DNA from: Myxococcales bacterium
GTDB lineage: Bacteria; Myxococcota_A; Polyangia; Fen-1088
Direction of reading: 5' to 3'
NCBI GenBank assembly: GCA_025350815.1
Contig: JANXXE010000006.1
Coordinates: forward strand, 60,662 to 124,661
DNA: 64,000 bases
The notes under the pieces: model-generated
Databases searched by the model: none
Seen by the model: the letters and a program-made list of their open reading frames with translations, nothing else
Told to the model about the DNA's origin: nothing
Shown here: positions 30,960 to 36,200 of the stretch, one piece after another
Layout: each line of letters opens with the position of its first letter
Position numbering within the stretch: the stretch's first letter is position 1
Made by a program: the position numbers and the translations under genes

Positions 30960-31364
30960 ATGTCCACATCTTCACGCGATCCGGACGACAAGGGCGGCGG
31001 TTTCACGGTCAGCGACCGCCGGGCGTTTACCGAGACCGGCGAGTCGCGCCCCGAATCGTCTGAGACCAAGCCCGCGTCCAAGACGCCCCCGCCACCCGCG
31101 TCGCGCGATGGACGGGTCTTGCCACCGGTCGACTTTCACACCTTCATCATTTCACTCGGCTCGTCCGCCCTGTTGCACCTGGGCGAAATCGAACGCCCCG
31201 AAGGCGGGGCCACAAAGGATCTGGTCATGGCCAAGCACACCATCGACCTTCTTGAAATGCTTCACGGCAAGACCAAGGGCAACCTGACCTCGAACGAGGA
31301 AAAGCTTTTGGAAAGCCTGCTTTACGATCTGCGGCTGCGCTATATCGAGGCTGCCAAAACCTAG
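30960..31364 (+). CDS. DUF1844 domain protein
   Basis: LPPVDFHTFIISLGSSALLHLGEIERPEGGATKDLVMAKHTIDLLEMLHGKTKGNLTSNEEKLLESLLYDLRLRYIE. Confidence 0.85.
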   Translation: MSTSSRDPDDKGGGFTVSDRRAFTETGESRPESSETKPASKTPPPPASRDGRVLPPVDFHTFIISLGSSALLHLGEIERPEGGATKDLVMAKHTIDLLEMLHGKTKGNLTSNEEKLLESLLYDLRLRYIEAAKT

Positions 31365-33148
31365 ATTCGCAGAAGCTGGACACGGATTCCGCCGTTCGAC
31401 AGGGCGGCACGGTTTTTCACCGGCAATCCCAACGCCTTGTCGGCGGCCCTGTCCGCGACGACGATTCCGGCACCCCAGCCCGCAAAACGCGCCCGCAGAA
31501 CGCGCCCGATGTCCCGCGCCACCTGTGTACCGGCGTTGCGGCTACCCAGGCGCCGCCCATAAGGGGGATTGAGCAACACCAACCCGGCCGGCCCCGGGGC
31601 TGGACGATCGCCAAACGCGGCAGCTTCGAAATGCACGTGCGGCAGCAAGCCCGCGCGCTCGGCGTTGCGCCGGGCGGTTTCGACCAGCCGCGCGTCACGG
31701 TCGGAAGCGAAGATCGGCGCGGGCGGCCGGTCCTTGATGGCGGCGCGCGCCTCATCGAGCAGCCTTTGCCACAAGTCAGCGTCGTGGCAGCGCCAGGTCT
31801 GAAAGGCGAAGGACCGCCCCAGCCCGGGCGCCCGGCCAAGGGCGATCGTGCACGCCTCCAGCGCGATGGTACCGGCGCCGCACATCGGATCGACAAAGGG
31901 CAGCGCCGGATCGTATTCGCACAGCGCCAGCAAGCCCGCCGCCAGTGTTTCGCGCAACGGCGCCTTGCCCGCCTCCAGGCGCCAGCCCCGCCGGTGCAGA
32001 AGCTCGCCCGAGGAATCGAGGCTGACCATCCACTGGTCCTGATCACCCCGAATCAGAATGCGGGTCGCGGCTGTATCGGGCTCGTCGCCGTCATCTGGGC
32101 CTGCGGTCGCAGCCGAGGGCAGGTCGCCCACACGATCCCCAATTCCCAGTGCCACGGTCTCGCCTATCGCACCTGTGTGGTACAGGCGGCTGCTGCTGGC
32201 CGACGCGCTGATCTTGATTGGGCGGTCGGTGGGCAAGAAAGCATCCCAGCGCAGGTCAGCAATCAAGCGGCGCAGCTTGGCGAACTCGCGCGCCTTGCCG
32301 CCGCCCAGGCGCAACAGCACGCGGCTTGCCACACGCAAGCCCAGATTCGCGCGCATGCCAACCTCAAGCGGCCCCGAAAACGAGACGCCTCCGGGCACCG
32401 TGCGCACCTGGGTCACCCCGGGCAGGCGCGCGACCTCGTCCTTGAGGGGCGCCTCAAGTCCGGGCGCCGCAACCGCGAACCACGCCTGCGCGGTGCCCAC
32501 GACATCCAGTGACCGCCCCTGACGCTTGCGGCCTGGCCGCGGCTTTTGTCCCCGGCTTTCCCCCGGCGCCGGCAGGCGCGCGCTGCGACCGGCAAAGCGT
32601 AGGTGCAGCAGGATTTCGACGGTGCCACTGCCACCCGCGACCGGCGAATCGATGTGTCCGACGATCGCGAAACCCAGCGCCGTCGCCTTCGTCGTGAACT
32701 GTTCCAGCGCCCGCGCGCGCAGGGCCGGGTCCGACACGTCGCCACCTTTCACCTCGTGCGGCGGCAGCTCGAACTGCGGCTTCAGCAGCACGATACCCTC
32801 GGCGCCGTCGCGCAGCCGGAACGCCAGCCCGCGCAGCATATTGCGCGCAGCCACGAAGCTGACGTCCACCGAGAAGAAATCAAAAGGCCCGGGCGCCACC
32901 GACAGCGACAATGTTTTCCAGTCGGTCTTCTCCAGGACCGTGACGCGCGCGTCGCTTCTGAGACTTGTGTGCAACTGCCCGTGACCCACGTCCACCGCCG
33001 TGACATTGACGGCCCCGTGGCGTAGCAACGCTGCGGTGAATCCCCCCGTCGAAGCCCCCACGTCCACCGCGCGCGCACCTGTCACCGCCGCGCCGAGGCC
33101 AAAGCGCTCGAGCGCCGCTTCGAGTTTCAGTCCACCCCGGCCCGGCAT
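31361..33148 (-). CDS. Fusion: TlyA-like (FtsJ/RrmJ-fold) methyltransferase plus THUMP/RlmL-like methyltransferase
   Basis: N-terminal MPGRGGLKLEAALERFG...AVDVGASTGGFTAALLRHGA...VDVSFVAARNML...LLKPQFE (TlyA without S4); C-terminal VAAPGLEAPLKDEVARLPGV... FVDPMCGAGTIALEA... LVLLNPPYGRRLG (COG0116-like), all in one frame. Confidence 0.85.
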   Translation of the reverse strand: MPGRGGLKLEAALERFGLGAAVTGARAVDVGASTGGFTAALLRHGAVNVTAVDVGHGQLHTSLRSDARVTVLEKTDWKTLSLSVAPGPFDFFSVDVSFVAARNMLRGLAFRLRDGAEGIVLLKPQFELPPHEVKGGDVSDPALRARALEQFTTKATALGFAIVGHIDSPVAGGSGTVEILLHLRFAGRSARLPAPGESRGQKPRPGRKRQGRSLDVVGTAQAWFAVAAPGLEAPLKDEVARLPGVTQVRTVPGGVSFSGPLEVGMRANLGLRVASRVLLRLGGGKAREFAKLRRLIADLRWDAFLPTDRPIKISASASSSRLYHTGAIGETVALGIGDRVGDLPSAATAGPDDGDEPDTAATRILIRGDQDQWMVSLDSSGELLHRRGWRLEAGKAPLRETLAAGLLALCEYDPALPFVDPMCGAGTIALEACTIALGRAPGLGRSFAFQTWRCHDADLWQRLLDEARAAIKDRPPAPIFASDRDARLVETARRNAERAGLLPHVHFEAAAFGDRPAPGPAGLVLLNPPYGRRLGSRNAGTQVARDIGRVLRARFAGWGAGIVVADRAADKALGLPVKNRAALSNGGIRVQLLRI

Positions 33149-33291: not shown

Positions 33292-36200
33292 ATGCGTAAG
33301 TTCGAGCGCGTCCTGGTCGCCAATCGCAGCGAGATCGCCATCCGCGTGTTCCGTGCGTGCACGGAACTGGGCATTCGCACACTCGGGGTCTTCAGCAAGG
33401 AAGACCGCAGCGCCCTTCACCGGTACAAGGCGGACGAAACCTACGCGCTGAACGAGGCGCTGGACCCGATCAAGGCCTATCTCGATATCCCCGGCATCGT
33501 CGCCATCGCGAAGCGCCACCGCGCCGATGCCATCCATCCCGGTTATGGCTTTCTGTCCGAGAACGCCGACTTCGCCCGCGCCTGCGAGGCCGCAGGAATT
33601 ACGTTCATAGGCCCGCCTGCGCGCGTTCTTGAATTGATGGGCGACAAGGTCGCCGCACGCCACCAGGCGGAAAAGCTGGGCATTCCGGTCGTTCCAGGGG
33701 CCGCAGCGGCGCTACCGAATCCAGACGCCGCCGCCACGTACGCGCGACAAATCGGTTACCCCGTGATCCTGAAAGCCTCGTTTGGCGGGGGTGGCCGGGG
33801 CATGCGTGTCTGCCGTGCCGAGCCCGAACTGCGCGAATCTTTCCTGCAGGCCGAACGTGAGGCCACCGCCGCTTTCGGGCGCGGCGAGATCTTCCTGGAG
33901 AAGTACATCGAGAGCCCCAAGCACATCGAGGTGCAGGTGCTGGCCGACGCCCACGGGCACACGGTCCATCTGTTCGAGCGCGACTGCTCGGTGCAGCGGC
34001 GCCACCAGAAGGTCATCGAGGTAGCGCCCGCGCCGAACCTGGACCCCGCCCTGCGCGCGAAGCTGTGCGAGGAAGCCGTCAGTCTGGCGTCCGCCGTGGG
34101 CTACGTGAACGCAGGCACGGTCGAGTTTCTGGTCGACGCCCGTGGCAGCCACTACTTCATCGAGATGAACCCGCGCATCCAGGTCGAGCACACGGTGTCC
34201 GAGATGGTCACCGGCATCGATCTGGTCAAATGCCAGTTGCGCGTGGCCGAAGGCCACTCGCTTGAGAGCCCCGAGGTCGGCATCCGCTCGCAAAGCGACG
34301 TGTCTTTGCGCGGCTTCGCGCTGCAGTGCCGGATCACGACCGAGGATCCGACCAATGGTTTCATTCCTGACTACGGCCGTATCAGCCACTACCGATCGGC
34401 GGCGGGCTTCGGCATTCGGCTCGACGCCGGCACCGCCTTTTCGGGCGCGATCATCACGCCGTTCTACGATTCGATGCTGGTCAAGGTCTGCGCCTCGGGC
34501 CTCAACTTCGAGGAGGCCTGTCGCAAGATGGATCGGGCGCTGGCCGAGTGGCGCGTCCGCGGCGTGCGCACGAACCTGCCGTTTTTGCGCAACGTCGTCA
34601 ACCACCCGCGCTTCCGCGCCGGCGACGCCACCACGACCTTCATCGCCGACACCCCTGAACTGCTAACCTTCAAGGAACGTTTCGACCGCGCCACGAAGAT
34701 CCTTCAGTTCGTCGGCGACGTCAGCGTCAACGGCAACCCCGAGGTCAAGGGCGCGAAGCCCAAGAACCTGCGCAAAGCGGTGATCCCGCCGCACGACGCC
34801 GACGGTCCGCTGCCCCAGGGCTCGCGCGATCTGTGGAAAAAGCTTGGCACCGAAAAATTCTGCGCGTGGATTCGCGATCAGAAGCCGCTGCTGCTCACCG
34901 ACACCACGCTCAGGGACGCCCACCAGTCTTTGCTGGCCACGCGCCTGCGAACCTACGACATGACCCGCGTGGCGCCCGCGATGGCGCGCAACCTGTCCGG
35001 CCTGTTTTCACTCGAGATGTGGGGCGGCGCGACCTTCGACGTGGCGATGCGTTTTCTGCACGAAGATCCGTGGGAGCGCCTGACGCTGCTGCGCCGCCAG
35101 ATACCGAACATCCTGTTTCAGATGCTGCTCCGGGGCGCCAACGCCGTCGGATACACGAACTATCCGGATACGGTCGTGCGCCGCTTCGTCGAGGAATCCG
35201 CGAAGGCCGGGATGGACATCTTTCGCGTGTTCGACTCGCTTAATTGGTTGCCCGGGATCCTGCCGGCGCTGCAAATGGTGCGCGAGGCGGGCGGCATTGC
35301 TGAGGCCTCGATTTGCTACACCGGCGACATCGACGATCCGGCCCGCGACCGCTACGACCTTGGCTACTACGTGAAGCTGGCCAAGGAGCTTGAGCGCAAC
35401 GGCGCGCACATCCTGGGCATCAAGGACATGGCGGGTCTGCTGCGTCCCTTCGCCGCGCGGCGCCTGGTAAAAGCCCTGCGCGACGAGGTCAGCCTGCCCA
35501 TCCACCTGCACACCCACGACACGGCGGGCGTACAGGCGGCGACCCTGCTGTTTGCGGCCGAGGCGGGTGTCAACATCGCCGACGCCGCCTTTGGTGCGCT
35601 GTCGGGCCTGACGTCGCAGCCCAATCTGGAATCGCTGGTCGCGGCATTGCAACGCCAGCCGCGCGACACCGGTCTCGACTTCGACCAGTTGCTGCAGTTC
35701 AGTTACTACTGGGAAGAAGTTCGGAACTACTACAGCGCCTTCGAAAGCGGCCTGAAATCCCCCACCGCGGATGTGTACATCCACGAGATCCCGGGCGGCC
35801 AGTACAGCAACCTGCGCCCGCAGGCGGAATCCCTCGGCCTCGGTCACCGGATTCCCGAACTCAAGCGCATGTACGCGGTGGCCAACGAGATGCTGGGCGA
35901 CATCGTCAAGGTCACGCCGTCGTCGAAGATGGTGGGCGACCTGGCGCTGTTCATGCTGACGAATAACCTGACGCCCAAGGAAGTCCTTGAGCGCGGCCGG
36001 GAGCTGACCTTCCCCGAATCCGTCATCAGCTACTTCGCCGGGGACATCGGCCAGCCACCCGGTGGCTTTCCGGCGCGTCTGTCGGAAGTCGTCCTCAAAG
36101 GCCGCAAGGCTTTGACCGGGCGCCCCGGGGACGCCCTGCCACCGGTGGATTTCGAGGCTGTTCGCCGAACCTTGGAAGCCAAGATTGGCCGGCCGGCAAG

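Follow-up and report, generated by a model that had tools for sequence, protein, structure and literature searches.

Does a gene that joins two ribosomal RNA methyltransferases in one frame encode an enzyme with two activities, and would it act on the sites for which these families are known or on others? The question is raised by a locus in a 64,000-nucleotide stretch of DNA of a Myxococcales bacterium (contig JANXXE010000006.1, positions 60,662 to 124,661), hereafter called the window. The original prediction described there a TlyA-like methyltransferase lacking its S4 RNA-binding domain, followed by an RlmL-like methyltransferase whose THUMP domain might have taken over the role of S4 in a bifunctional modifier of ribosomal RNA. 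Here, we show that the fusion is real, conserved and under selection in both halves, and we argue that it probably adds to, rather than replaces, the canonical enzymes of these bacteria.

Results

One frame encodes two methyltransferase modules

On the reverse strand, 595 codons run without any stop from an ATG at 33148 to a TAG at 31361, encoding a TlyA-like 2'-O-methyltransferase without S4 and an RlmL-type (RlmL_1st/THUMP/UPF0020) methyltransferase. The suggested domain search confirmed the single-frame fusion, since Pfam finds FtsJ at residues 4-185 (E 7e-27), RlmL_1st at 224-278 (E 2e-15) and UPF0020 at 387-588 (E 2e-40). All the motifs cited in the original prediction are found in the protein, no stop or frameshift separates the domains, and the joint recurs in 16 genomes. 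When phmmer is run against solved structures, TlyA matches residues 3-186 and RlmL proteins (3k0b and E. coli 3v97) match residues 222-593. The protein can be divided into a TlyA-like FtsJ domain (residues 1-190, positions 32579-33148, from Pfam and alignment), a variable linker of low model confidence (residues 191-221, 32486-32578) and an RlmL-type module (residues 222-595, 31361-32485, from Pfam, structure-library and profile matches), all on the reverse strand. We found no C-terminal RlmK (m7G2069) domain, the UPF0020 match already reaching residue 588 of 595. The NCBIfam scores lie below the equivalog cut-offs for both TlyA (117 of 250 bits; 112 of 185.8 bits for the subfamily cut-off, also below) and RlmKL (240 of 466 bits). 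Hence, "TlyA" and "RlmL" are used here as family-level names only.

The fusion gene is convergent with a DUF1844 gene on the forward strand (30960-31364), and the stop codons of the two overlap by four bases. In relatives this arrangement is not kept.

The TlyA-like half has lost S4 and kept its active site

The absence of S4 before the GGLKLEAAL motif was borne out. Pfam detects no S4 domain in the 595-residue protein, nor in the longer open frame that extends beyond the ATG to 33382 and overruns the start of a divergent pyruvate carboxylase gene near 33292. In most fused copies an in-frame stop lies at most about 15 codons 5' of the GGxKL motif, where the S4 region is found in the canonical TlyAs of these genomes. 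A hidden upstream S4 domain is ruled out by these stops and by the lack of a Pfam match. The SAM-binding residues, whose lack would have spoken against the predicted enzyme, are in place: the GASTG motif (residues 31-35) is intact. Alignment to the Mycobacterium tuberculosis TlyA structures matches K8, D95, K123 and E178 of the fusion with K69, D154, K182 and E238, the catalytic tetrad of that enzyme (PMC3072309). K-D-K-E is the tetrad typical of ribose 2'-O-methyltransferases. In vivo, Bacillus subtilis TlyA depends on its K-D-K residues and its SAM motif (PMC12805891).

The RlmL half carries a probable diverged THUMP region

The assignment of the second half to a THUMP-bearing RlmL held in part. 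RlmL_1st, detected in all members checked, UPF0020 and the NPPY motif of guanine N2-methyltransferases (residues 527-530) support RlmL, and in a profile alignment N527 falls on N309 of E. coli RlmL, whose replacement by alanine abolishes m2G2445 (PMC11194073). Yet Pfam THUMP has no match in the window protein or in its ten named relatives; a diverged THUMP, at about residues 280-385, is instead indicated by the fold and by profile-profile alignment to RlmLs, which covers this region. The fusion protein of one genome, G094, does have a Pfam-type THUMP match.

The structure prediction that had been called for finds both folds in one model. Built with ten relatives, the AlphaFold2 model has a mean pLDDT of 81 and a pTM of 0.61, too low to trust how the halves are placed with respect to each other, and pLDDT drops below 50 at linker residues 200-213. 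With Foldseek, its C-terminal part matches 3k0b (E 2.8e-32, TM 0.87 of the target) and E. coli RlmLK (E 7.5e-32), whereas the N-terminal part matches TlyA 3hp7 (E 5.6e-17) and 7s0s, the M. tuberculosis TlyA on the 50S subunit (E 2.5e-13).

The fusion is conserved across four families

The proposed survey of homologs showed that this architecture is conserved: it is found in 16 species-level genomes of four Myxococcota families, namely 12 of the 18 genomes of the window genome's own family (f1), G132 and G135 of f20, G094 of f22 and G552 of f69, the last on the same contig as the named record L053 (UBA9160; gapped, 5.4 kb). In G094 the frame is 704 residues long and a far longer, repetitive linker of low complexity (AKPSTGAKPSAKAS) separates the halves (L161:5254-7365 / G094:C128). 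The named records are metagenome-assembled genomes of uncultured Myxococcales or Myxococcota, some of them filed as Proteobacteria or Deltaproteobacteria; they were scanned with a clade-specific pattern, and the fusion may also occur in other phyla. It was absent from the viral contigs and plasmids searched. All close matches of the TlyA half lie inside a fused frame in our samples of 318 genomes of the class and 379 of the phylum, where no stand-alone S4-less TlyA of the fusion clade was found.

Some genomes of f1 differ. G004 (L025 / G004:C213) has the RlmL half only, its frame resuming at "..HLRFGGRP..LPKPGERR" directly downstream of an unrelated gene resembling those of Cys-rich secreted proteins; either a natural domain loss or a misjoin would account for this. 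In G002 (L172 / G002:C3) an unfused RlmL-type gene with a long branch, divergent from pyruvate carboxylase, sits where the window has the fusion. G012 has a fragment only, at a contig end, and no fusion-type gene was found in G010, G013 and G014; these four assemblies are incomplete (74-88% complete). The fusion is retained while its gene neighbours change across the family. A conserved operon was considered as a functional clue and rejected, as neighbours are not conserved except for the divergent pyruvate carboxylase, also present in G002.

In 12 of 12 aligned fusion proteins, the K-D-K-E tetrad, the SAM motif and NPPY are identical. Among close pairs, dN/dS is 0.07-0.24 in the TlyA half, 0.15-0.33 in the RlmL half and 0.21-0.43 in the linker, which also has the highest dN of the three regions. 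Hence purifying selection acts on both domains and, at the level of sequence, the expectation that both active sites are kept was upheld. Outside this alignment, the copy of G132 (L056 / G132:C394) has an Arg at the position of the catalytic K182 and a very long branch, and its TlyA half is possibly inactive.

Canonical enzymes coexist with the fusion

The window genome also encodes a canonical TlyA with S4 and FtsJ domains, on contig C132. The contig is only 4 kb long and the Pfam S4 match is weak (18 of 22.8 bits), but canonical TlyA is also present in the other genomes of f1 that were examined. Contig C43 carries another RlmL, which has a THUMP domain and is of the E. coli/Listeria type, and contig C137 a third FtsJ-family gene, which has the best family score and is probably RlmE. 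As the genome carries a canonical TlyA as well as an E. coli-type RlmL, the fusion is an addition and not a replacement.

Phylogenies set both halves apart from these enzymes. In a tree with 40 canonical TlyAs of Myxococcota and those of M. tuberculosis and Lactococcus, the 15 fused TlyA halves included are recovered as a single clade (support 100/100). RlmL sequences fall into two subfamilies, with support of 100/99 to 100/100 for the split. E. coli RlmL and the Listeria protein belong to the first, as does the additional, unfused RlmL of the f1 genomes; the other unites the fusions with unfused paralogs from other Myxococcota and with two alphaproteobacterial genes, the latter placed by a quick tree that resolves the subfamily boundary less well. 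By these trees, this second subfamily, which lies near alphaproteobacterial "class I SAM-dependent RNA methyltransferases", differs from E. coli RlmL. Two genes of the RlmL type are present in many Myxococcota.

The history of the fusion is not simple, because the fused RlmL halves do not form a single clade if G094 is among them (AU p 0.006); without G094 a single clade is compatible with the data (AU p 0.13). The pattern would fit either one ancient fusion followed by losses or the attachment of the same TlyA module more than once.

Discussion

The sites implied by the original prediction, the cytidines of TlyA and G2445, were not borne out: canonical TlyA and a second RlmL are present, and the fused RlmL belongs to another subfamily. 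Canonical TlyA makes 23S C1920 and 16S C1409 less likely targets of the fusion, and the E. coli-type RlmL makes 23S G2445 less likely too. The retention of canonical enzymes, together with the placement of the fused halves in separate clades, leads us to infer new sites. The fusion is an extra two-domain enzyme, and C1920/C1409 and G2445 are probably not its targets, or not its only ones. We estimate at about 0.6 the probability that it is a bifunctional RNA methyltransferase, combining 2'-O and N2-guanine activities and, within the genomes searched, confined to some Myxococcota. That both halves are active is suggested by their invariant catalytic residues and by the selection acting on them. 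Counting against this reading, the TlyA half seems dispensable in places (G004 and G002 have the RlmL part only), G132 has the Arg noted above, Pfam THUMP goes undetected in the window protein and, with G094 included, the RlmL halves do not share one clade.

How might such an enzyme work? The RlmL_1st/THUMP module would dock the protein on assembling large-subunit rRNA, and the RlmL module would bind RNA and methylate the N2 of a guanine, while the flexible linker would bring the tethered TlyA-like domain to a nearby ribose for 2'-O-methylation. A single chain would in this way couple two modifications, a 2'-O-methyl and an N2-methylguanosine, on the model of E. coli RlmKL (m7G2069 and m2G2445), and the two sites would probably be additional ones. 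In the sampled genomes the S4-less TlyA clade is never found without the RlmL module, which is consistent with the idea that this module, RlmL_1st and a diverged THUMP, may supply RNA binding instead of S4. Judging from family membership, the substrate is probably pre-50S rRNA. The complete scheme, with coupled 2'-O-methyl and m2G at novel positions and an RlmL/THUMP module that redirects an S4-less TlyA-type enzyme, is more tentative, and we put it forward as possible rather than probable.

Alternatively, the TlyA-like half might be a non-enzymatic module, for RNA binding or as an assembly chaperone, on an N2-guanine methyltransferase. The copies lacking this half in G004 and G002 and the K182 to Arg change in G132 would fit, as would the methylation-independent role of RlmL in 50S assembly (PMC11194073). 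But we think this unlikely: the complete tetrad and the SAM motif are invariant in the 12 aligned copies, and in dN/dS the TlyA half roughly equals or falls below the RlmL half. A substrate among tRNAs instead of rRNA is a slightly weaker candidate. THUMP plus UPF0020 is also the architecture of the tRNA m2G6 enzymes Trm14/TrmN, which give significant fold matches, and Trm14 is matched in NCBIfam. Nevertheless, RlmL-type matches are far stronger (240 versus 82 bits in NCBIfam; E 2.8e-32 for 3k0b versus 7e-20 for Trm14/TrmN with Foldseek), RlmL_1st is found in all members and TlyA enzymes modify ribosomal RNA, so that we infer a ribosomal rather than a transfer RNA substrate. A redundant backup for C1920 and/or G2445 is improbable even though each half can still be assigned to its family, TlyA or RlmL, given the canonical TlyA of the f1 genomes examined, the long, fully supported branches that part fused from canonical halves and the loss of the S4 domain of TlyA. 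Finally, an assembly chimera or sequencing artefact is scarcely credible, for while the relatives with named records are metagenome-assembled genomes and the L053 gene is gapped, the same joint in sixteen species-level genomes, amid different neighbours and with selection on both halves, rules out a frameshift, chimera or chance joint.

If the fusion is indeed bifunctional, it offers a natural experiment on the gain of sites by rRNA methyltransferases: S4 has been lost, a different RNA-binding module is present on the same polypeptide and the original enzyme persists. Two extra modifications would be expected in the RNA of Myxococcota, and annotating such genes plainly as TlyA or RlmL would misassign their sites. 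It also marks an RlmL subfamily common to Myxococcota and Alphaproteobacteria and distinct from E. coli RlmL.

We found no fusion of TlyA with RlmL, or of TlyA with THUMP, in the literature searched, which covered few subscription journals. With TlyA, whose structures are its best solved relatives, the fusion shares the FtsJ/Rossmann domain, GASTG and the K-D-K-E tetrad, but it lacks S4, is joined to RlmL and forms a clade apart from all sampled canonical TlyAs, including those of M. tuberculosis and Lactococcus. RlmM (23S Cm2498) is a THUMP-bearing 2'-O-methyltransferase, so that THUMP is able to serve an FtsJ-type enzyme. Yet RlmM has a single activity and no UPF0020, its matches to the fusion are weak (also with Foldseek), and the fused TlyA half is far nearer to TlyA (117 versus 23 bits in NCBIfam). 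Trm14/TrmN share the THUMP plus UPF0020 fold, but match much less well than RlmL and have no TlyA half. A working parallel is E. coli RlmKL (YcbY), which shares RlmL_1st, the THUMP-region and UPF0020 fold and NPPY, and is likewise a fusion of two rRNA methyltransferases, whose halves work one after the other, on m7G2069 and m2G2445, and which unwinds helix 74 (PMC11194073). Two-enzyme fusions of this kind are thus already known, and the pairing is what differs: in E. coli the partner is RlmK (m7G2069), at the C-terminus, whereas here it is a TlyA-like 2'-O enzyme at the N-terminus, joined to an RlmL half of the other subfamily.
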